From Sphagnum magellanicum (taxonomy: Eukaryota > Streptophyta > Sphagnopsida > Sphagnales > Sphagnaceae): DNA of 64,000 nucleotides. The position numbers and the translations under genes were made by a program. Positions 24,131 through 64,000 of this stretch are shown here, piece by piece. The notes under the pieces were generated by a model that was not told the DNA's origin, ran no database searches, and was given only the letters and a program-made list of their open reading frames with translations. The stretch covers positions 11,686,146-11,750,145 of the forward strand of contig CM038921.1 in assembly GCA_021904315.1 (NCBI GenBank), read 5' to 3'. The stretch's first letter is position 1. Every line of letters begins with the position of its first letter.

Positions 24131-25173
24131 TCACCAATAGTCCATGCAAGAACAAACATCATCTTCAAAGTGATGAAAGTGATTGGCATCCCTTACCATG
24201 ATTGCTCTCTCAACTATTCTTGAAATGAACTTTTTGTGGAAATGTGGCAATCTTCAGAGACCCGGAGACTATTTCTTATTCAGAGAGGAGTACCAGGAGC
24301 TGTGTTGATGAGCCCCAATGCAATAGCCAGCTTCTCACTATGGTGACACAAATGCAACACCTTTTCTTCTTCTTCTTCTTCCACATCATGCAGAACAAAT
24401 TTAGTGTCAGGCCCTGGAAATCTCTGCGGTTCTGCACAGATTTCAATCATCGGAGGGTGGTCTTCACTGCCTACTACAAACATATGCACCTCATTATTCA
24501 CTTTAATCCAGGTGTGACCTGGCTGTTTCTTCACACCTTTTTCCTTTCACTGCCATTGAACATTCTCATAGAGATGCCTGTCGCCAGCAGCAGGATTTGA
24601 CAGCAGCATTTTCAGGCTCCAATTTAAGAATACATTTGGCAATGCATTTTTCCATCTCCACAGTACCATGAATTCTGTAAGCACTGAGCAAAGCCCTTCA
24701 TGCACTCACATGTGGTTTACAGGGTATTGCCTTGATCATATTCTCTGCCTCCTGTAGATGGCCAGAATGACCAAGAAGGTCTACCATGCAGGTGTAATGT
24801 TCCAATTTTGCAGAAATCCTATAGTCTGTGATCATTGAAGCATAACATCAAACACCTTCATCCACCAAACCTGCATGGCTGCATGCGGACAGATGACGAA
24901 CAAAAGTGGTATCATCCGGCTGGTACACGTTCACACATCTGTTGAAAATGTATAAGAACATGCCCATATATGGCACATCCTCCAAGTATTGCATTCCAAG
25001 TGACCAAATCTCAAGATGGAACACTCTCCAAGAATCCTCAGGGCTCCCACATTGGGCGCATGTCCACCCAGCTACTCCTCACAAAGACATCAGACTAACA
25101 ACCACTTTGAATGATCTGCTCACGAACTGTCCTACTCTCTTCAAAGAGCAACCACACTGGCACATGCATTCAG
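24131..25173 (-). pseudogene. PPR-DYW protein pseudogene, 3' part (last PPR units, E, E+ and DYW domains)
   Basis: On the minus strand translated pieces give, in the family's order, a PPR unit, 'PDDTTFVRHLSACSHAGLVD', 'LEHYTCMVDLLGHSGHLQEA', the E-domain start 'CKPHVSA' and 'YRIHGTVEMEKCIAK', the PG box 'KKQPGHTWI', the DYW hallmark '[20 protein letters not shown]' and the C-terminal '[20 protein letters not shown]' with a TGA at 24131. Live members are organellar C-to-U RNA-editing factors with a cytidine-deaminase-like DYW domain. Here the frame is broken repeatedly: for example, after APGTPL a stop follows, and the downstream DYW end is in another frame, with an in-frame stop after the LVDEGV segment. 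It is clearly dead. The 5' part continues beyond the LINE at 33168. Confidence 0.92.
25157..25173. repeat. Target-site duplication of the LINE, 3' side
   Basis: ctggcacatgcattcag is repeated exactly at 33168-33184 on the far side of the LINE. The 17-bp length is usual for target-primed reverse transcription. Confidence 0.95.
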
Positions 25174-25209
25174 GGTGAACCCCTTGCGGGGAGGGAGGCA
25201 ACAGCCCCA
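25174..25209 (-). promoter_or_regulatory. LINE 3' UTR ending in a GNRA-loop hairpin
   Basis: The sense sequence after the ORF2 stop runs 36 bases and ends CCCCGCAAGGGG-TTCACC directly at the target duplication. CCCC/GGGG can pair around a GCAA tetraloop. There is no poly(A) or simple repeat. In stringent LINEs such as eel UnaL2 or silkworm SART1 a 3' stem-loop is recognised by the element's own reverse transcriptase; a similar role here is inference. A four-pair stem could arise by chance. Confidence 0.6.
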
Positions 25210-28200
25210 TCAATCATTATCGAAATTCGAGAAGTACAATGGCGGGAGGAAACGCCACCTGATGGTGGTGTTATCACTCCCAAAGATATTCAAATGCAAC
25301 CATTCAGATTTAAAAGCTAACTCAATCCTATCTTGGATGTCTAGGTCTTTGTCGGGCCTAGGGGCTCTGATGGCCTTCCAGGTGGCCATGCCGACTTCGA
25401 TAGTGGCCACCCAGGCTTGCTGGAGCACTTTGTTGAGGGAGTAGCTGTCGTCGAAGTGCTTACAACACCTCTTGGACCAAAGGTAGTATAGAATGAAGGT
25501 TCGGAGGATGTCGAGAGGCTGCCTAAGGTAGGTGAAGCCGCCAATGTGGTAGGCGTGGAGTCCAGGAGGGTCGTCTTCACGTTCGATGGAGGCCTCGCCA
25601 AGCAAAGCGAAGGGCTAGTTGATGGTGATGCCCTCGGGAGCTTTCCATTCCTCCCAAACTCTTCTGAACGCACCCCAGGCGCGTTGCGCGAAAGGGCAGT
25701 CCAGGAGGGAGTGCTGAGGGGACTCAGGAGTCCCAGCATTGCAGGTGTTACAAGTGGGAGAGATCCCCATCACTTGCAGCCAGGTTCCAATCGGAAGACC
25801 CTGGTTGAGAGTTAACCAAATTAGGGTGCCCACCTTCCTTGGGCGGGCGTTGTGCCAGATCCTGGCAACCACCTGAGGAGTAGTGGAGTTCCTAAAATTG
25901 AGATTGTTGATGAACGTGATGATTCTAGGGGAATGTGATGGCCCCTTTGCATTCTTGTACCCTCTTTTAGCGGTGTACCCAAAGAAAGGCGCGTCACCTA
26001 GGGGGTGCGTTTCTCTCCAGTGCCACTCCCTTGGATCCCAAGGGAGATTTTCGATGAAGCCGGATTTAAAAATCCAGTAGGTTGTGTTTCTCTGGCTGGC
26101 AGAGGGAGGATCTCTGTCGATTTTGAGGGTAGTTCCGTGTCTTTCTTGAAAAAGAACTCTGACTGAGGTGTGGTTGTCGAGGAGGAGGGAGTGTTTCTAG
26201 TGGCTCGTGGCCCGGAGCTGTCCGCTAGTAGAAACTCTTCTGAATTCTAGTACCAAGACTTTGTCGGGGAGGGATTCCAACACGTAATAGACCCATTCCA
26301 GCAGGGCACCCGAGCGAGGGGCAATGCTGCTGATCCAGTCACCTAGTTGAGCACGGGAGCTAAAGGAGTCGGGCCGCCTGGGGATGCTCTCAAGGATGAT
26401 GTCTTTGGAGGCTCTGTTAGAGGCATGGAAATGCATTCTCACGTCGGAGAGGTTCTTCCGGTCTTGAGCCTCTTGGTTCCAGAGGTCTCTGACTCTGGTG
26501 TGTCCAAAACGCGCGAAGGCACATCTTTCATTTTGGCTGCTCACTCCAAGCGGCAGCCCTCTTGTGTTGGTGAAGGATGGATTTCCAAAGAGAGGTTGTC
26601 TAAGCATTTCCACCCTGCTTGTTGGATCTTCCTTGGTCAGGCCTAGTCGTACATTGATCCATGCCCCCAGGATGCTCTTCCACATGGAGCAGGGTGTCCT
26701 TTTTAGCTTGGGCGCGGCAAAAATCCAATTGATGTCTAGTGTGTCGGGTCCTTTTCCATGGACTGGGAGCTTGGTCTAATTAGCATGATGTCTGATCAGT
26801 TCCTTCCAAGGTTCCCCGTCGGGCGCCAGGCCCCTGACCAGCAGCTTTGTGAGGAGTGCCTCCGATTGAATTTTGGGGTTGATTATGCCCAGTCCGCCTT
26901 TGGCAATGAGCAAGGTGAGGGTGTCCCATTTCACCTTAGCCCGAGCGGGCGTGGCTTTACTACCCCATATAAAATTTCTGACCACCCCACATACCTGGCT
27001 GCACATTCTAGGACTGTTAGGAATAAATCCAGCTTAGGGGATATGCACACAAGCAAAAGAAAAATAAAGGACACGAGATTTTACATGGTTGAGCAAAAGC
27101 CTACATCCACGGAACGCACCCGCACTCAACTCACACTATGAAATCGATAATTACAATAGTGAAAAACTATCTCTCTCAACTCTCACAATTTTATCACTTC
27201 TCTACTTGGCACTCCACACCACTTGTAGAGATATTACAATGAAAACTATAAGAGTATTTATAGTTTCAAGTTCACCAACCAATTGCCACCAACTCCCACC
27301 TACCAAGTTCACCAACCAAGTTCACCAACTACCATTAAACTTAGACAATGGTGGTTGGTTGTTAATTTGGTAGGGACGGTGCAATTAATTTGATAGGCTT
27401 GGGTGGTGCAATTAATTGATCAGGCTTCACACACAACAAGGATTTGGGTTCCAGCATGCAGCCAGGTACCACATTGAAGTTAGAAGTACCTGGTTGGCCA
27501 CTAAAATCCTCCCCGCGAACGAGAGATTGTTGTGGCTCCAGCTGATCAATTTTCCTTTCAGTGAAGCCATCATTTTATCGAAATTGGCCTCTATTGGGAG
27601 GCGGAAGCCTACTTGAACCCCTAGATATCTGACACCCTCGCCTTCGGGGATCCATTTGAGTCCGACTTCCTGTCCCCAACTCCATGCTCTCTTTTTCTCC
27701 TGCTCGCCCAGATGGCGACAGATTTATTCCAATTGATCTTGGCGCCCGATGCCTTGCAAAAGGTTTCCAACACTCCATGGGTCTTGTCCAAGTTTGTTTG
27801 TTCACCTTTGAGATTCAGAGTTGTATCATCGGCAAACGTTTGGTCCCTGATTCTACCCCCTCTTGGCAGAGTTAGACCTTTGATGGCATACCTGGGGTCT
27901 TCCAACATGTGCCCCAAAACGTCGGTAGCTATGATGAAGAGGTAAGGCACTAGGGGGCACCCCTGGCGGACTGATCGGGCAAGCTGAAAGACTGGCCCCG
28001 CCTCTCCATTAATTTTGATTACTGAGGAGGCTTCGTGGTGTAGGGTGTGGACCCATTGCACCCAGGTGCTACTAAAACCGAGTTTGGTCAGGGCGGTGAA
28101 TAGAAAATCCCATTCTATTCTGTTGAAAGCCTTTTCAAAGTCCAACAGGAGGAGTACTAGATCCTAGTCACTCTCCACAGCCCAGTCCAGGGAGTCCTGA

Positions 28201-30141
28201 ACGATAAAGGCATTGTCGAATATGCTCCTGCCTTCTACAAATCCAATTTGATTCGATCTAATAATGCCTAGGAGGAAGGCTTGCAGCCTCCCAGCGAGGG
28301 CTTTAGCTAAGATTTTGTAAACACTCCCCAAAAGAGTAATCGGTCTTTAGTTCCTAAGCTTGGAGCGATCCCTAGTTTTGGGAATTAGGGTGATGAGCCC
28401 CCTATTGATGAAAGTCGAGGCCTCTCCTAAGGCCAGCATGGCTGTGTAAGCCTTGAGTAGCGTGGGCGCTACTTCGTTAGCGCAAGCCTGGAAGAATTCG
28501 ATTAGGATTTCATTGTGGCTAGGAGTTTTGCTTTTGGGCAACGCCTGAATCGCTTTGAGGACCTCATCCAGAGTGAGTTTCTGGATGAGGGAGGCATTCG
28601 TTTCGGCTGTGACTTTCGCCGGAACGCTGTCCCAACAGCGGGCTTGCACTTCCTGGGTGCCCGGGAGATGCGCTTCCGAGGAGTAGAGTTTTGTGCAGAA
28701 TTCGGTGACGTATTGGGTGAAGTCGGGTTAACCCCTGATCGCGCCACTCTCTGTCTCCAATTCTCTCAACAGGGTTTTTTTTTGGCCTAACTTGTGAAAA
28801 TCAAAGAAGTTCTTTGAACAAGTGTCGCCGTACTTGAACTAATTCGCTGAGGATAAATGTTGGTTACGCGACACTTGGTTCTGATAAATTTCTGCCAGCT
28901 TTGCCTGTGAGTCAGACAGGATGTCCCTCACCCTTTCGTTGGTCGGGTCGCCTTGCAGTTGGGCCTCTGCCAGTTGAATTTTTTTTTTGTGTGTTCTGAT
29001 CGTGGCTCCTCTGAGTCGTTTCTTTGCTTTTGTTAGGCAATTGTTGCAGCTCATAACCTTGCCTATGGCCGCTTCCAGCCAGGGTGCCCAGCCTTGGTCA
29101 CTGGATGGGGTCGGGTATCTCTAGCCCAGGCTTGGAGCAGTGCTGTTTTACCCTCCGCTTCCTCCAACATGGAGGTGTCAAAGTAGCGTGCTGGGTTGCC
29201 TGTGTCAGTTGCCTACCCCCAAATTGAGATGAGAAGGGGGGAGTGGTCCGAGAATTTCTTGATGGAAATTGTTGATTCAATCCTCCCCCCTCTAGAATCC
29301 AGATCTTGGGAGACCATAAATTTGTCGATTCCGGATACCGCGGAGCTGGCTCCAAATCTTCCATTGTCAAAGGTGTAGGCCTTCTTTGACATTTTCCGGA
29401 AGTTGTCTAAGCACCAGGCATCGGATAGTCCATACTGCAGAGTCATGTGGTGCCAGGAGGCTGCCTCCCTCCCGTGCATCTGTCTTCCACTGGCGATGCC
29501 CCTACAAGAGGTTTCCTCCTGGTGATTGAAGTCTCCTATTATGGTGTTGTCTGAATCGAATTCGGCTCTGCTTATGGCTTTCCATAAGAAAGCTCTGTTT
29601 CTAGAAGTTTGGGCTACATATACATTAACAATAGTAAGTGTGCCGTTGCCGGCAGCTTGCAACTTGATAAATTGTGCCCGTCCCTCCATCAAAATTCAAC
29701 CAAAAGGGCTGTCATTCTGTCTACAAGGATGGCGATGCTTGCACTCATTCTTTGAGAGGGGCCCATGGGTATTCCAGGGTTCCAGAAGGAACCCCCTTCC
29801 AATACTCTATTCTTTTCCCAGCACTCCTCATGCCTTCTTGACCCAGGTGATATTCCTGGATGAGAAGGATTTGGGGGGGGGGAGGGAAGAGAGGCTAACC
29901 AGAGTTTGATCGCCTTCTGCTTTGGCGAATTGATCCCCAATCCTCTAACATTAAGGGACGCCAGGGTGAGGGTTTTTCCAAACATGTGTGTGTGGGTTCT
30001 GGGCGGCTGGTGAGCTGATCGATCCCATATTTGTGCACGCAGTTTGACCTGCTTCCTCCTGGCCTGCTCCTTGGGCTTCTTGGTCATCCACGGAGCTGAA
30101 AGGAGTAACCGTGCACAGGGGCTCCAGTTTGGAGAGGTCAA
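25210..30141 (-). CDS. LINE ORF2: APE endonuclease, reverse transcriptase, zf-RVT (interrupted)
   Basis: On the minus strand the first ATG of this frame is at 30141; a second, at about 30024 ('MFGKTLTLASLNVRGLG'), is where L1-type endonucleases usually begin. Endonuclease motifs 'IIGDFNHQ' and 'SDHSPLLIS' lie at about 29580-29215. Reverse-transcriptase motifs are 'FEKAFNRIEWDFLF', 'RSVRQGCPLVPYLF' and 'FADDTTLNLKG' (about 28145-27800). The connection region has 'VVRNFIWGSK' (about 26990). The zf-RVT knuckle, with 'CNTCNAGTPESPQHSLLDC', is at about 25740, and the frame ends at 25210. The frame is broken by several stops or shifts (for example between 28347 and 28145) and by the LTR-like insertion at 27015-27438. 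It is dead as it stands. Confidence 0.88.
27010..27443. mobile_element. Solo-LTR-like insertion inside the LINE
   Basis: 27015-27438 (424 bp) starts TGTTAGG and ends ACAACA, and is bracketed by 5-bp direct repeats (aggac at 27010-27014, aggat at 27439-27443) that differ by one base. On both sides the LINE reading resumes around 'CWNPNP' and 'RMCSQV'. It contains wording common in plant LTRs ('gagattttacatggtt'). It is best read as a solo LTR of an LTR retrotransposon, family unassigned, younger than the LINE. Confidence 0.8.
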
Positions 30142-31087
30142 GCTTGATGAATCTTTTCTTCCTAATTGCTTGAGGGGACGCCAGCAGGCTGGCTGATGCG
30201 CTTTTGCATACTTGGCGATCTGTGCTTACGGGGCCGGATTTCAACAAAAGACTGTGTGCCGGGCCCGAGAACTCAATGTCATTGTTCATGCTTGTCAAGG
30301 AGTCACACATCCTCCAATGGAGGTGTCTCTTATTATTCACACTAATGGCGCTGGTGCTTGTGCTGATGTGTGTGAGTATGGTGCATTCCCATCCTCCTTT
30401 GGTCTGTTCTTCTTGCCAGCTCCATTCCAAGGAGACGCGATCCTTGAGGTTTAGACTGTATCTGAGGACCTTGTCCTCGAGCTCTGATTCGGTGCTCTGG
30501 GTGATATCTACAAGGGCAGACGCATGGGTCCATTCTTCCTCTGATGAGCCCGTGATCTTGATTTTAAGTGGGAGGCTCGGCAGGGAATTGTTCCTGGCGT
30601 ATACTAGAATCTCTTTCTGGTCGTTTTTTTCTCTGGACAAAACCAGCCAGATCCTTGTTCTGGCGTGCTTTTGGCCTGGTGGTACAGAGATGCTTAAGGA
30701 GGTGAAATAGGAGCGATGTACTTCTGAGTGCATTCGTTTCCTTCTTCCCCTTGGTGTGACTTCATGGTTTGGGGTGGGAGTTGGGGACTGAGGCAAGGCC
30801 GGCCTTGGCGAGGCGATCCTAGGAGTGTGTTTCTTTCTTCCCTGGATGGTCCAACTCTCCCTCAAATCCTCTTGATTATCCTTTGCGTCCTCAGCTTCTG
30901 GGTTGACAGCCTCCAGAGCCACGAACGGGTTTGTGTTTGCAACTGAGTAAAGAGCCTGGTGGCTGTTTGCCTCCCGGAAACCAAAATTGAGCTTTGCTTT
31001 GGATGTGTAGGCGCTTTCTAAATGCCTTCTGGTCACTAGGTTGGGCCTGTCGTGATTGAGACCTGGGGAGCTTGCAAATTCTGTCAT
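29951..31087 (-). CDS. LINE middle frame, 378 codons, function unknown
   Basis: This is the longest uninterrupted minus-strand frame in the LINE. Its ATG (31087-31085) overlaps the ORF1 stop TGA (31086-31084) as ATGA, and its 3' end overlaps ORF2 in another frame from 30141 to 29951. The protein has a Ser/Pro-rich first third ('SPRPALPQSPTPTPNHEV'), then a central globular-looking part with 'ARTRIWLVLSREKNDQKEIL' and 'LPLKIKITGSSEEEWTHASA'. I recognise no domain. It could be the C-terminal part of ORF1 fused through a lost frame, a linker before the endonuclease, or a true third ORF. That it stays open while its neighbours are broken is suggestive only. Confidence 0.6.
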   Translation of the reverse strand: MTEFASSPGLNHDRPNLVTRRHLESAYTSKAKLNFGFREANSHQALYSVANTNPFVALEAVNPEAEDAKDNQEDLRESWTIQGRKKHTPRIASPRPALPQSPTPTPNHEVTPRGRRKRMHSEVHRSYFTSLSISVPPGQKHARTRIWLVLSREKNDQKEILVYARNNSLPSLPLKIKITGSSEEEWTHASALVDITQSTESELEDKVLRYSLNLKDRVSLEWSWQEEQTKGGWECTILTHISTSTSAISVNNKRHLHWRMCDSLTSMNNDIEFSGPAHSLLLKSGPVSTDRQVCKSASASLLASPQAIRKKRFIKLDLSKLEPLCTVTPFSSVDDQEAQGAGQEEAGQTACTNMGSISSPAAQNPHTHVWKNPHPGVP

Positions 31088-33059
31088 GATGTGATCAACT
31101 TTCGAGCTCCCTGGTACTTTGATCTGGCTTGAACCCCCGGTTGTATTTCTGCTCTATGGAGCTTATCGAAGCAATTGGCGATGGCTGAGTCAATGGGGTG
31201 CTCTAATTGGCTGCGAGCTTCTGAGTGCAACGGGTTCTTTCGAGTGCGCGTTTGGTTGCTCCTGACATTTTGAAGTCGAGGTTGTCTGCCAACCTGATCC
31301 TGCTTTGGCTGAGAAGCTCCTTCTCCTGACTTCTTTCCATCTGTTCCGCTTGTGGAGAGGGGGCCGTTGGATGGTGGCACCCCTTCCCAGGGTATACTTC
31401 TGTTAATGGTGCAGATCCGGGCGTGATGGCCGAATCGCCTACATTTTCTACACTGATTCGGTAGTCCAGAGTATAGAATTCTCTGTGCTACCATGTCGTT
31501 GGTCTGAGCTCCTTCCGCCATTGACGAAATTCTAATGTAGCCAGGAAGCTTGGAGATATCTCTCAGCTCAATTGTTATCATGGGCCCGGCTAACCTTTTG
31601 ATATAAGAATCGGTTGCTTCAATTTCCAGGACCTCCCCGAGCTTGCTGGCCATGATGGTCAGGGCTCTTGTGTTCTGAAATTGTTCGTGCAGGTCGGGGA
31701 ACTACACCTTGATAGCGTGAGTAAGCTGAGTTTCTGCTCCTTGCGAGCTTGCGTCGAAGTTCGGGATGTATCATGAGAAGGAATGACCCAAGCCACTCCA
31801 TTCGACTGCCGTCAGTCATCTGGTGGCCTTCGCGCCCTCCTCATCTTCAAGCAGAATCTCAAAGTATCACCTTGTGAGGAGAATAACCGAGACGAGAGGG
31901 GCCGGGAGGTGAAGTTTGAGACAATCGAACAACGTCTTAAAGGTTACTCTGCCCCCTAAAGTTCTACCGATTACGGTTCGCCTTGCTTTCTTAGCAACGT
32001 TTTCTTGCATTGTGAGCACCAAATCCTTTGGAAAATCCGCCTCAATTTCCAGATTATAATCGACTGGCGATGGGCCTTGGGTTGCCTCCCCCGAAGGGGA
32101 GGCAGCATCTATCCCGCTGCCTGGTTGCGCGATCAAAGGGTGGAGGGAGGGGGTCGTCACTAAGTTGATCGAGTTCTTGCGTTGGAGCTTCTCACTCTCG
32201 GTGCTTTTACTCTGGCAGCGGAGAGGTCTTCCCTCTCCGATTACCTGGCTGCAGCAGCTTCCGAGTTCTCCGAGCCCCTTCCAAGACCAGCAGATGCAGA
32301 GAAAATATCTGACTTGCAGGGATGAGGAGAGGATCCTTTCGGAGGTACCTGATGGGTGCGAGGTCCGTCAGAGCATTCGATCTTACTCTCCGGGAATTTC
32401 GTCACGACATCCAGAGAAGTGGATGTCGAAGATGACCGTTGGAGAAACTCTCCGTGTGGTCCGCCATCGCTCCTGAGCAAAAGAACTTGCGCTTCCTTAC
32501 TTGTTTGCTGGAGTTTCGTCTGATCCTGGAGAGCAATCGAATTCGCCTGAGGGGTGCGCAGTCCGTCAGAGCTTTCGATCTTGCTCTCTGGGAGTTTCGT
32601 CGCGACATCTAGAGGAGCGATTGGCGAAGATGACCGTTGGAGAAGCTCTCCTCGTGGTCCGCCATTGCTCCTGAGCAAGAAAGCTTGTGCTTCCTTGCTT
32701 GTTTGCTGGAGTCTCGACCGATCCTGGAGAGCGATCGAATTCGCCTGTTCTGAACTCGCAATCCTTCCCTCCTTGCAGATCATTTCCCTAGAATGGAGAG
32801 AGATCGGCTTGGCAGGAGCTTCGCAGAGTTCTGGCGATGCCGGATCAATAGAGCCGTTGGTTGGAAGTAAGTTCTTTTTGCCCGTTGGAGAGGAGGCTCG
32901 GGCGCCGCCGACGTTCTTTGGTCTCAGTTTGAATTTGCTGAGTCCCGGCCGCGCACTACATCCAACTTTCCTAATCCTGTGAGCTACCAAAACGAACTCG
33001 TTAAGCTTGGCGGTCTGAGGATTAGCAGCTTCTGAGCAAATTTCCATCATTGTTGACAA
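31084..33059 (-). CDS. LINE ORF1: gag-like RNA-binding protein (DUF4283 plus CCHC), interrupted
   Basis: The frame opens at 33059 with a low-complexity N-terminal part containing two 66-residue repeats. The DUF4283-like region follows ('RRTVIGRTLGGRVTFKTL', about 32060, to 'GPMITIELRDISKLPGYIRI', about 31550). Then comes the knuckle 'CRKCRRFGHHARIC' (about 31460-31420), a plant zf-CCHC_4. It ends TGA at 31084-31086, overlapping the next ATG. One frame change lies between 32241 and 32160 and at least one stop between 31867 and 31653. Plant L1 ORF1 proteins bind the element RNA; the domain order is standard. Confidence 0.85.
32350..32750 (-). repeat. 198-bp tandem duplication inside LINE ORF1
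   Basis: Two adjacent copies, exactly 198 bp apart (for example ccgccat at 32461 and 32659), encode two 66-residue repeats beginning 'QANSIALQD'. The period is a multiple of three, so the frame is kept. The copies have diverged at roughly one residue in five. Confidence 0.85.
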
Positions 33060-33167
33060 GAAGCGCTTAAGAATCAGCTAAAAAAAGGTGCATTCGGACA
33101 AGAGAATCATGAGCCTCTCTGATACACGTCCAGACAGCAGAGAGCTCCCATCGCCCTAAGTTATCCC

Positions 33168-33700
33168 CTGGCACATGCATTCAGCACCCCCACAAAAGTA
33201 ACAGACTTTGGTAGCACACCCTCCTGTTGCATTTGTCAAAATGCCTTTTGCACTTGCCCACATTTCACATGCCCCATATCATTGCATTCCAACTGACCAC
33301 ATTTGGAGATGGCATGTCGTTGAACACTCTCCAAGTGTCCTCAATGCCCACATTTTGCATACATGTCCACCAAGCTACTCCCCACAAAGACATCAGACCT
33401 GCAACCACTTTGAATGAGCTGTTCATGAACAAGCCTGTTGTCTTCAAGTGCTCCTAAACCAGCACATGTGTTAAATCACATTAACAAAAGTCAATTTGTC
33501 AGGACTGATCCCTTCTTGTCACATTGGTTGGAAAAGTTGCATCACCTTCTCAGGTTGCCCATCCTTCACATATTTTGCAAGCTTCTGATTCCATGGAAAA
33601 AGGTTCAATTGCACTGTGCCCGGTGCCATTTCAGCCATCTCTGCTGCCACCTATGGCAGGTTTCATCAGTCTTCAAGCCAGAGAGCTTCCCATGTCTTCT
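33168..33700 (-). pseudogene. PPR-DYW pseudogene, 5' part (N-terminus and first PPR units)
   Basis: On the minus strand a possible start ATG at 33636-33638 gives 'MAEMAPGTVQLNLFPWNQKL', followed by 'KYVKDGQPEKVMQLFQ' and 'ISPDKLTFVNVI', then 'SGCRSDVFVGSSLVDMYAKC' and 'IEDTWRVFNDMPSPNVVSWN', two PPR units of the PLS type. The reading changes frame several times and contains stops, so the gene is dead. Its next unit, after the LINE, resembles this one (33340-33440 against 25010-25110), as tandem PPR motifs do. Removing the LINE and one copy of the 17-bp duplication makes the two halves continuous. 33168-33184 is the 5' target duplication. Confidence 0.88.
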
Positions 33701-34145: not shown

Positions 34146-34445
34146 AGCATCCCGAGTAGACCCAAATGCACCCAAGTCAATTCCATCTGGAGCATCACAA
34201 GAAGACCCAAATGCAGTTCCCTCTGGAGCATCCCAAGAAGACCCAAATGCAATTTACTCTGAAGCATCCCAAGTAGACACAAATGCAACAAAATGCAATT
34301 CCGTCTGGAGCATCCGAAGAAGAGTCAAATGCAATTCCCTTTGTAGTATCCCAAGAAGACCCAATTCCCTCTGGAGCGTCCCAAGAAGACCCAAATGCAA
34401 ATCCCTCTGGAACATCCCAAATCAACCCAAATGCAATCTCTCTCT
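34146..34445. repeat. Minisatellite, eight units of mostly 36 bp
   Basis: The consensus unit contains 'agcatcccaagaagaccc' followed by 'aaatgcaattccctctgg'. Units run 30-46 bp. Read on the plus strand in one frame, the regular units encode the 12-residue repeat ASQEDPNAxPSG, but unit lengths not divisible by three break the frame. It lies just upstream of the dead PPR gene and is not obviously part of it. Confidence 0.9.
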
Positions 34446-42274: not shown

Positions 42275-42826
42275 TCTTATATATTAAAGCTACAATGTCT
42301 GTCTGTTTGTCTGTCCGAGCAGTGCCTGGAAAATTATTCCAGTCACTGCTCGTTCCCTGTCGTGTGTTTTATAGAAAGGGGGGGGTGGGAAAGTTGAAGA
42401 ATTTCTTGATTTGGGAATTTCGATCTGTGTGACAGTTATTACCCAACTAATAGCTTCGAGGACCTGAACTGAGGTGGCCAGAATCCTCGATAAAGGACTT
42501 GAATCGAGATTCTCAATACTCGGTCCAGACCTCGAGACGAACCTGAAACGAGGTTCCCAGAAAGAAAACCCGTCGTTGGGGACCTGAAACGAGGTCCTCA
42601 GAGAGAAAACCCGTCGTTAGGGTCCTGAAACAAGGATGCACTCTTTTATTCACCAACACTGAATTTGTTTTTTTTTTAAAATTAGTTTTAAAAAATAAAT
42701 ATTTCAAACCCTAAAAGCCGTCTGCTTCCTGTTCTTTGAAAAAACAGGCCAGGGCAACCGCTGCGGGGGGCCGGGCAAGGTGCCACGGGTGGCTGGAGTG
42801 GCGTAGCCACAGGTTGCCCTCACTCG
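42275..42826 (+). mobile_element. Helitron-like non-autonomous element, copy 1
   Basis: It begins TCTTATATATTAAAGC just after a host A, with 'TGTCTGTCTGTTTGTCTGTC' nearby as in many Helitron 5' ends. It ends CTCG before a host T. A hairpin GTGGCT/AGCCAC (42789-42810) lies 12 bases before the end. Canonical Helitrons end CTRR, so CTCG is a variant. The copy at 43530-44063 has the same two borders. Confidence 0.65.
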
Positions 42827-43529: not shown

Positions 43530-44063
43530 TCCTATATATAAAAGCAAACATGGTGTCTATCTGTCCATCTGTCTGTGGCGACAAAAACAAGACGAGGTCC
43601 TGAAACGAGCGAGGTTCTCAAAACCTTCGAGGACCTGAACCGAGGTGACCAAAATCCTCGATAAAGGACCTAAATCGAGATTCTCAGTACTCGATCCAGA
43701 CCTCGAGACGGACCTGAAACGAGGTTCCCAGAAAAAAAAAACCCGTCGTTGGGGACCTGAAACGAGGTCCTCAGAGAGAAAACCCGTCGTTAGGGTCCTG
43801 AAACGAGGATGCACTCCGACTGGCAGTTCTCGGTTTTGGACATATTGAAGAAGAACCAATAGCCGAACACAAGTCCGGTTCAGTGTTGGGTGGTGCTTTT
43901 GAGTCTTTAAAGAACCACCGGTTCAGGTCCTTTAAATATTTCAGACCCTAAGAGCCCCTTGCTTCCTGTTCTTTGAAAAAACAGGCCAGGGCAGCCGCTG
44001 TGGGGGGCCGGGCGAGGTGCCACGGGTGGCTGGAGTGGCGTAGCCATGGGTTGCCCTCACTCG
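43530..44063 (+). mobile_element. Helitron-like non-autonomous element, copy 2
   Basis: It starts TCCTATATATAAAAGC after a host A and ends CTCG before a host T. It shares with copy 1 a core of alternating 'gacctgaaacgaggt' and 'aacccgtcgtt' phrases and the last 100 bp, while the flanks of the two copies differ. Between the matching parts the two differ by insertions near their 5' ends. Confidence 0.65.
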
Positions 44064-47835: not shown

Positions 47836-50800
47836 CAAATTCCTAGGAACCAATTTGGACTCATTTGAACCAGATTGAATCCTTGAGTTGGCTATGCTTT
47901 GGACACTAGCTTGCATCTTGGTTCTTTGAAATTGTGAGCTCTCCTTTTTAGGTCTTTTTTTTCCCTTTGGGGTTCCAACCAATTGATGTTCCCTCCAAAA
48001 TGGTGCAATGTAAGTTTAGCCTTGATTTGCCACTTTTTGGTCGTGGACCCTCATCTAAAGGTCATCATGAGTCCAATTTATGGCTCTCATCCAATAGGAT
48101 TGCTCTATTTTCATTGGACCTTAGACCTTGGACCCTCATCTAAAGTGACCCTAAGAAACAATAACCATGTTTTTTTTAGGGTTATTGTTTCATAGGGGAG
48201 GAAAAGCGAAAGTTGGTGGTAAATTACAAAATTATCTCACAAGGTGGATTACAAAGCCTTGAAAAAGGAAGTTGTAAAGGAGCATTGAACAATGGAAATG
48301 GAACAAGTATCCAAAAGGTAACCCTATCTACAAGAGTCAATTTGGCCTTATCTATACTCCCCCCCCACATGAAAGACAATTTCAAAGTCGGATAACACCT
48401 TCCAAAGAGTGAACCAGCACCCACCAGCACACCATCCACTGGATGCCCATTATGACTCGGATGTGGATGAACCTCAACTGAGTTGATATCTGGTTTCACC
48501 TTGGTAACCCATTGTGTTGAACCTTGGGTTCCAGTTCTACACCCTTTTTTTTTTTTGGGGTCTCACAACCTCCCTTGTCATTCCTAGTTTGATTCTTCAA
48601 ATTTGGAAAAAAATCTTCAAATTTGGTGATTTCCAAGAGAAAAAAAAACACCCAAGTTTAAAACCAGGCCCACCTCAACCCCACATTGCACCCCACATTG
48701 CACATGATCCTAGATGTGAATCATATGATATATTGGGCCAGGGAACACTCTACTACTTACTACCTTGGCAGCTTCAACACTAATTATATTATTTTCAAAA
48801 ATGTTGAAAATTTCAAAAACTGATTTTTTACCCAAATTTTTTTTTAAAAATTGTGAAAGAACTCGTAAAAAAATCCAAATCCAATCACACCACCTACCCA
48901 CCACTTTGTCCCTACCTATGAACTAACACATCCAACACTCTAGCCTACTTTTAAAGCTATTATCCTACTTTTACTTGCCAACCAACCTCGCTACTTAATA
49001 AGCTCATCCAAGTCACCATGCCATGAGTGACCAATGAAGCTATCACAATATGCAAGAGGTTGGTATTTGCTTAAGGCCCCTTACTTACATACCCACCAAT
49101 GCCACAAACAACAAATGAGGGTATTGCATATGCATACATTGCCCTCCTTTGATAGCTTGATCTAGTGAAGCCTTTTTTTTTAATGATTTTATGAAAATAC
49201 ATGAAACACCATTCATACGAGTATTGCATACAACGGACCAATCATGATGTGATGAGGACTTAAATGCTAATGGACCAAGTTTTTGCAATACCCTCATATG
49301 GCGTGATGATACATGGGGCATCTACCATTAAATTTAGACAAAAAAAATTAAGTCCATGCAATTCCTACAAGTTGAGTGAAAAATAGAAGGGCATTAATGA
49401 TTTTAAATGAATGAATGTATGTATTGCATTTGGTGGATCAAATGTAGTTGAAATAAAACCTTGGGTGATTGAGAAATATTTTTTTGCAATACTCACATAT
49501 TCAAATCTTACCATGCATTGTGCTAATAATAACTTTAAACTTTCATCAATGAAGGTATTATTCATTCTACCATGGTTCTAGCCAATGTTCTCCTCATGTA
49601 GATGAGGGTATTGCTCATTTGATTTTATGGTTAATGTAAATCATTTGTGATGAATGGAAATATTGTGTGGAAAGGGGATGCTATGTATGTGCAATATGGC
49701 ATAAAATGATCAAGATGCAGAAATTGGGAGTGGAAAGATTTGATTTAGAAAATAAAATGGGTAAAGAGTTACAAAAATGAATATGTGGACAAAAAATGAT
49801 CGAATGACCACATTATAAAAATGTGGTGAAATGCAAAAGAATCTCATCACAACCTATGTTACAATGGTTTGACATTATGCTCTAATGTGCACCCTTGCTT
49901 GAGGAAAATGAATCATAAAAAATATCCTTGTTCCTTTGATAGGTTGCCAAAGTTGTTGTGGCATTTGCCCATGGTGTGGATGAAAAATGATGATGCTGAA
50001 GTGCAAACTAAACCATGTTCATCACTAAGACCTCTTTATGATTCAAAACTTAGTTTAACAAAAGAATAAATTAGTTTCATGATTCAATTGGAGGATGGAA
50101 ACAATGTAAAAAATAACAAATTAAATGTTTGCAAATCTACTAGCCATGAATCGTTTATGATTCATGGTATTTACATATTGTTTACATATCTTTTTCTTAG
50201 TTGTCCTTAATGGATTCCAACCTTTAATTCCAACCATCCTATGATGTAACCTTGAGGGCTTCACATTAACAACCTTGCTTGCTCAAATTCCTTTGGCAAG
50301 GTCATCATCCTTTTCAACTTGTGACAAGGCACTACATGAAATAAATCCCACGCCCCATACAAGAATGGTAGTCAATCTTAACATGTCAAAGGTTAATCGT
50401 ACTTGTAAGGGTTGTTGAACCTCTTGCAAATGTTGTGCCTCAATCTAAAGTTGATCGCATTCAATTTTAGTTTTTTCTTTTTTTGCATTATCAATTGTTT
50501 TCTTCTCATTGTGTGTTTGTATCGCTTGGAGGTTGTTCAAAACATGAACATTCATGGAATGATGGTCTTGTTACTTCGGCTTGGATGACAAGTAAAAGTT
50601 TGCCTAAATTTGTTCCACTCCATGTGAAAACCATATGTTTTGTCTAGATGTTAATGAAACAACTATTTAATCACATAGGAGTTAGTGCATGCATAAACTT
50701 TGCAAATGCACTCCAACTTTTCATGAATCCATGCAACATCTTCCATTGTGTTTCTAGGTCAAAAAAACTCTACATGCTAGCATGCAAAAACAAGTGTGAA

Positions 50801-63646: not shown

Positions 63647-64000
63647 TCACTCTTCTGAGTTAGAATCCTCAAAGGGTTCATCTTCAGGTATGGTTGGTCG
63701 TCGAGAGACTTGCCGAACAAATCCACGACCTCCGAACAAAGGTCTCATGTAAGCATCATCAAAATTCCTCCACACCCGATGAATACCTGATGTTGAGGCA
63801 CCCAGAAGTGCAGTTATAGAACTAGGACGTCTAAGGCCATTTATGATGAAGTTACCCCCATTGTGTTCTTGATTTGCCTCTGAGGCGCCCAAGAGCAGAG
63901 GAACATGGATATCAGAATCAACTGAAACGTCTTTCGGAGAAGGTGGATCTGAGTCTTCACGATAAAGTGTTTTCAGGCGAGCAGGAAGTAACCACCCTAT
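63647..64000 (-). CDS. Vacuolar Na+(K+)/H+ antiporter, NHX class, C-terminal end (partial)
   Basis: The minus-strand frame is open from the window edge (64000) to a TGA at 63647, giving 117 residues. It reads 'IGWLLPARLKTLYRED', then 'SPKDVSVDSDIHVPLL', 'GLRRPSSITALLGASTSGIH', 'VWRNFDDAYMRPLFGGRGFV' and an acidic end. This matches the regulatory tail of class I plant NHX exchangers, where 'RRPxSIRxLLTxPTxTVHxYWRxFDDxFMRPxFGGRGFVPF' is the usual wording. These tonoplast proteins exchange luminal H+ for Na+ or K+ and act in salt tolerance, pH and vacuolar K+ storage. Only the tail after the last membrane helix is in view. The exon's upstream splice site is outside the window or just at its edge. 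Confidence 0.88.
   Translation of the reverse strand: MGWLLPARLKTLYREDSDPPSPKDVSVDSDIHVPLLLGASEANQEHNGGNFIINGLRRPSSITALLGASTSGIHRVWRNFDDAYMRPLFGGRGFVRQVSRRPTIPEDEPFEDSNSEE

Follow-up and report, generated by a model that had tools for sequence, protein, structure and literature searches.

The decayed L1-type long interspersed nuclear element (LINE) at 25174–33167, on the minus strand of a 64,000-nucleotide stretch of Sphagnum magellanicum DNA (assembly GCA_021904315.1, contig CM038921.1, positions 11,686,146 to 11,750,145; the window, from whose first letter all positions are counted), ends without a poly(A) tail. We propose that it is a plant L1 whose reverse transcription began from a non-A 3′ end, possibly through recognition of a hairpin, and we put the probability of this reading at about one half. 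The element measures 7994 bp including a nested insert, and its reading frames are interrupted by stops and frame changes.

Boundaries and target site of the LINE

The limits of the element are set by an exact 17-mer, CTGGCACATGCATTCAG, that adjoins its 3′ end at 25157–25173 and its 5′ end at 33168–33184. When both window strands were searched for k-mers of 12–25 bases with starts at 25121–25190, all repeats of at least 13 bases belonged to this target-site duplication, and one unrelated 12-mer was also repeated. With the flanks joined around one copy of the duplication, all three frames read through the junction without a stop (for 62, 27 and 27 residues), so that an open frame is by itself little proof of an empty site. 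One joined-flank frame, QMQQEGVLPKSVTFVGVLNACASVVAL, which is read across the junction as EGVLPKSVTFVGVLNACASVVAL, resembles PPR_2 positions 28–49, weakly and under the curated cut-off (E 0.057). The flank piece at 33268–33354, upstream of the junction, resembles PPR_2 positions 1–13 (E 9.9e-5) and that at 24701–24847 resembles PPR (E 0.0048), each below the curated cut-off. Six flank pieces were scanned, with PPR matches in three, none in two and only an unrelated family in one. On these matches the insertion site was most likely a decayed PPR gene from which no target base was lost. A mis-called end of the LINE is unlikely because the exact 17-bp duplication adjoins the terminal TTCACC and the empty site is PPR-like; the 3′ end is reliable, except for bases possibly common to element and target, as C is the first base of the duplication when read on the strand of the element (CTGAATGC). 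An initial annotation, made from the letters of the window alone, had taken an exact 17-bp target duplication to fix the 3′ end, and both the duplication and the PPR-like empty site bear this out.

The PPR-like gene split by the LINE occupies 24569–25156 and 33185–33475 on the minus strand and has itself decayed, with stops and frame changes; on its 5′ side lies a tandem array of ~36-bp units (34146–34445).

The inferred nick on the primed strand, ATTCAG/CACC, is not T-rich. It differs in this from the TTTT/AA-type nick sites favoured by mammalian L1s. TTAAAA is absent at the target, and no A-rich target sequence that would support a lost tail was seen there; the part of PMC4838847 drawn on here says that a TTAAAA target remains even in tail-less L1 copies. 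The nick sequence, as deduced at this one site, would agree with priming without an A-tail.

The 3′ end and its hairpins

From the sequence and its translation, ORF2 stops at a TGA codon (25210–25212, minus strand) and is followed by a 3′ untranslated region (UTR) of 36 nt, TGGGGCTGTTGCCTCCCTCCCCGCAAGGGGTTCACC (25174–25209, minus strand), which holds no A-run or simple repeat and directly adjoins the duplication. The last 18 nt of the LINE, CCCCGCAAGGGGTTCACC, close with CCCC-GCAA-GGGG-TTCACC against the duplication. There is no A-run of at least four in the last 400 nt of the element, and the 3′ poly(A) that is the usual trait of a plant L1 is absent from this copy. The initial annotation was thus right to place the ORF2 stop 36 bases from the end and to describe an element that ends in a hairpin and TTCACC with no poly(A).

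RNA folding of the 36 nt predicts two adjacent hairpins, not one, at −14.9 kcal/mol: the terminal hairpin CCCC-GCAA-GGGG (25180–25191, minus strand) and, just upstream, a second with the form GGGGC-UGUU-GCCUC (25195–25208, minus strand). In pieces of at least 80 nt the terminal hairpin is kept and the upstream helix is altered. The proportion of 1000 mononucleotide shuffles that were as stable was 4.3% for the 36 nt, 2.0% for the last 24 nt and 9.6% for the last 45 nt. Compared with the LINE's own less GC-rich pieces the tail stands out, equal stability being reached by 20 of the 1327 36-mers and 33 of the 2659 18-mers that were sampled. A GNRA loop on a 4-bp stem is uncommon: it is present in 925 of 127,928 36-mers when the two strands of the window are taken together, in 0.09% of the sequences obtained by mononucleotide shuffling of the tail (200,000 shuffles) and in 81 of 7958 36-mers of the LINE. 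Two of the 37 GNRA hairpins in 2 × 64 kb have an all-GC stem, and the terminal hairpin of the LINE is one of these two. The GNRA motif was picked post hoc, after the sequence had been read, and the hairpin by itself is no evidence of function.

Protein domains and L1 identity

The reverse transcriptase region of the LINE (27624–28346, minus strand) is in two pieces that lie in different frames or are split by stops; one matches RVT_1 at E 2.8e-18 and the other at E 1.4e-5, below the cut-off. Ten PDB sequences matched the reverse transcriptase at E up to 0.01. The top match was 8c8j (named RNA-directed DNA polymerase; 4.5e-19), four LINE-1 ORF2p entries scored between 9.5e-19 and 2.9e-18, and the next match was 8gh6 (reverse transcriptase-like protein; 3.7e-10), with named R2 entries at 3.6e-9 and weaker. 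The zf-RVT domain of ORF2 was found at 25675–25899 on the minus strand (PF13966, E 1.3e-12, 48.6 bits against a cut-off of 27.5); a zf-RVT domain after the reverse transcriptase is typical of plant L1. Together with the PPR-like gene, this domain suggests a land plant as the host. These comparisons support the classification of the element as L1-type by its reverse transcriptase, which appears nearest to L1 ORF2p among the PDB matches, and the L1 identity given in the initial annotation stands on the RVT_1 and zf-RVT matches and on the presence of L1 ORF2p among the best PDB matches. Other domains were matched less well. A probable endonuclease domain at 29231–29647 (minus strand) gave weak matches to L1 endonuclease chains in PDB (best E 0.0078), and no Pfam endonuclease was matched in the LINE. 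A probable CCHC knuckle of ORF1 lies at 31408–31455 on the minus strand (zf-CCHC, E 0.0077, below the curated cut-off); neither DUF4283 nor RRM of Pfam was matched in the LINE, and the ORF1 piece had no match in PDB.

Searches for related sequences

With up to three mismatches allowed, the 18-nt tail has one match in the window, the LINE itself, so there is no second tail within it. Comparison of the LINE with the masked window by blastn returned three scraps of 16–35 nt (E 0.035–0.43), and tblastn returned one match of 28 residues at 63665–63748 (E 5.7e-4). The latter was judged spurious as a second copy, the query piece being out of the presumed coding frame and nothing LINE-like being visible by eye. 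Protein-pattern scans gave 4 viral-contig and 73 prokaryote-contig stretches with the peptide pattern, of which none was confirmed, these contigs being a poor place for a plant family; the exact tail pattern had no match in the viral and prokaryote contigs, which says little about a plant family. Rfam includes the UnaL2 and R2 LINE 3′-element families. A scan against it gave five chance-level matches at 25000–25400, none to a LINE element, and none over the whole window at the gathering score. The string GGGGTTCACC was not found together with retrotransposon in literature text, a weak negative given that sequences are seldom printed in papers. PMC5787218 and PMC9033089, in the sections drawn on here, offer no information about the 3′ ends of LINEs. 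The tail may resemble the Angio-domain of plant SINEs.

Discussion

The reading that we favour starts from observed boundaries, an observed lack of tail, the sequence of the target and an L1-like protein. ORF2p would have nicked the primed strand of the target at ATTCAG/CACC. Reverse transcription would then have begun on an RNA that ended at or just past UUCACC and that may have been positioned by one or more short GC-rich 3′ hairpins instead of by pairing of an A-tail, much as the ZfL2 proteins hold a hairpin. Recognition of the hairpin, and the same end in other copies of the family, are what we infer beyond this. The points for this reading are the exact duplication at TTCACC, the PPR-like empty site, the lack both of an A-run and of TTAAAA, and a short 3′ UTR that carries a GNRA hairpin with a GC-only stem. 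By analogy, it may also draw on tail-less L1 families of flowering plants and on one hairpin-bearing plant L1 lineage (PMC3747384, in the sections drawn on here).

In Table 3 of the review by Ohshima, the L1 families of flowering plants number 233, of which 224 have (A)n ends and 9 no 3′ repeat, while among 15 green-algal L1 families 2 end in (A)n, 8 in other repeats and 5 in none (PMC3747384). The statement of the initial annotation that plant L1 elements normally end in poly(A) therefore holds for the great majority of these families and is not a strict rule. The tail-less plant and algal families are likened to the present LINE by their table entry, which gives no end sequences. According to the same review, in the sections drawn on here, a 3′ hairpin is conserved in one monocot L1 lineage, for which compensatory changes and short interspersed nuclear element (SINE) partners are also described; the review proposes that plant L1s descend from a stringent ancestor. 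This lineage, ME1 or monocot 1a, comprises maize LINE1-1_ZM and sorghum L1s and is associated with ZmSINE2 and ZmSINE3; stringent recognition has been proposed there too, and its hairpin, with CGAG 3′ of the stem and a UCU loop, is maintained, with compensatory substitutions, across many elements and is common to SINEs ending in T or A runs (passages from PMC3747384; PMC2774510). By contrast, the present LINE is a single copy whose hairpin has a GCAA loop and whose end is TTCACC, and no SINE partner was seen for it within the window. Precedents thus exist both for plant L1s that lack a tail and for plant L1s that bear a hairpin, and the tail described here differs in sequence from the published plant hairpin. 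UnaL2, ZfL2-1, ZfL2-2 and SART1 likewise have a 3′ stem-loop that a LINE protein could read, but they belong to other LINE clades (PMC3747384; PMC4176376, both as excerpted here); 3′ recognition by ZfL2 was demonstrated by experiment (PMC4176376), whereas that by the present LINE is proposed. The initial annotation had appealed to such stringent LINEs. On the account of PMC3747384 drawn on here, however, the 3′ terminus is poly(A) in SART1 and consists of TGTAA repeats in UnaL2, so that in these LINEs a stem-loop is not a substitute for a terminal repeat.

Several observations weigh against our reading. The prior favours a poly(A) family because of the 224 of 233 families above. Of the known plant hairpin lineage, neither the CGAG 3′ of the stem nor the UCU of the loop is present, the evidence is one decayed copy, and the 18-nt search of the window revealed no SINE with this tail. 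The folding energy of the 36 nt is ordinary for its composition (z −0.81), with 41 of 200 dinucleotide shuffles as stable, and among 50,000 shuffles 13.3% contain some 4-bp stem closed by a 4-nt loop. The initial annotation had itself cautioned that a stem of four pairs could be due to chance.

The main rival, to which we give less than even odds while regarding it as a serious contender, is that an ordinary poly(A) L1 made a one-off tail-less insertion, from an RNA that had been cut short or by priming inside the 3′ UTR, and that the hairpin is incidental. Both the frequency of (A)n ends in flowering-plant L1 families (PMC3747384, Table 3) and the ordinary stability of the hairpin would fit this, and in the mammalian L1 system there is good documentation of insertions that have a target duplication but no tail, for which internal priming has been argued (PMC5322556). 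However, the passages of PMC5322556 drawn on here cover other RNAs copied by L1 and not L1 itself. Those mammalian retropseudogenes share with the present LINE a target duplication and the lack of oligo(A), but they derive from other RNAs and were made by poly(A) L1s; internal priming and truncated RNA were both weighed for them and internal priming, not a hairpin signal, was favoured (PMC5322556). A one-off event is further opposed by a target without TTAAAA and by the position of the stop 36 nt from the end, as the RNA would need to have been cut by chance just beyond the coding region. An explanation that overlaps with our own is that the family does lack poly(A) and that its end is recognised through its primary sequence or through no specific feature, with the hairpin uninvolved. 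Here again an ordinary folding energy is what would be seen, and the table says nothing about structure in the 9 flowering-plant families, out of 233, that lack a 3′ repeat (PMC3747384), but the known stringent cases rely on a 3′ stem-loop (PMC3747384; PMC4176376, as excerpted) and we consider this explanation improbable. Loss of a tail after insertion, possibly together with some of a target duplication that was once longer, seems very improbable: although the element is old enough to have acquired stops, frame changes and a nested insert, the 3′ duplication is intact at 17 of 17 bases and adjoins the element, and the 5′ flank has no A-rich start as expected of a longer duplication.

Initiation at a non-A end could be extended to a lineage. 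Perhaps this LINE represents plant L1s outside the monocot hairpin lineage that carry no terminal A-tail or repeat, whose ORF2p reads the pair of GC-rich hairpins together with TTCACC and which cut targets that are not A-rich; we regard this broader proposal as tentative and rather doubtful. Its interest is that whether L1s can make processed genes and mobilise A-tailed SINEs depends on how they shifted between recognising one particular RNA 3′ structure and accepting any RNA with poly(A). If true, there would be a second stringent type of plant L1, one lacking the terminal repeat still found in UnaL2 and SART1, and a second, tail-less hairpin lineage would bear directly on the stringent ancestor proposed by Ohshima (PMC3747384, in the sections drawn on here). 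The novelty is limited by the single decayed copy and by the fact that tail-less plant L1 families are already tabulated in that review.

Other features of the window

A tRNA scan found no genes. ORF2 is interrupted by a nested insert of 424 bp (27015–27438, minus strand) that is not part of the LINE; it has TG...CA ends, carries a TATAAATA box and is flanked by ATCCT and GTCCT, which are alike at 4 of 5 bases. It is probably a solo long terminal repeat that arrived after the LINE, and the window holds no second full copy of it, the best other match being 23 nt at 49319–49341 (E 0.002). In the 5′ region of the LINE, repeat comparison revealed two tandem 198-bp units that are ~86% alike (32348–32747, minus strand), possibly promoter units. 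Outside the LINE, two arrays ~1.1 kb apart, at 42541–42635 and 43710–43808, have nearly the same 41-bp tandem unit (ACCTGAAACGAGGTCCCCAGAAA...).
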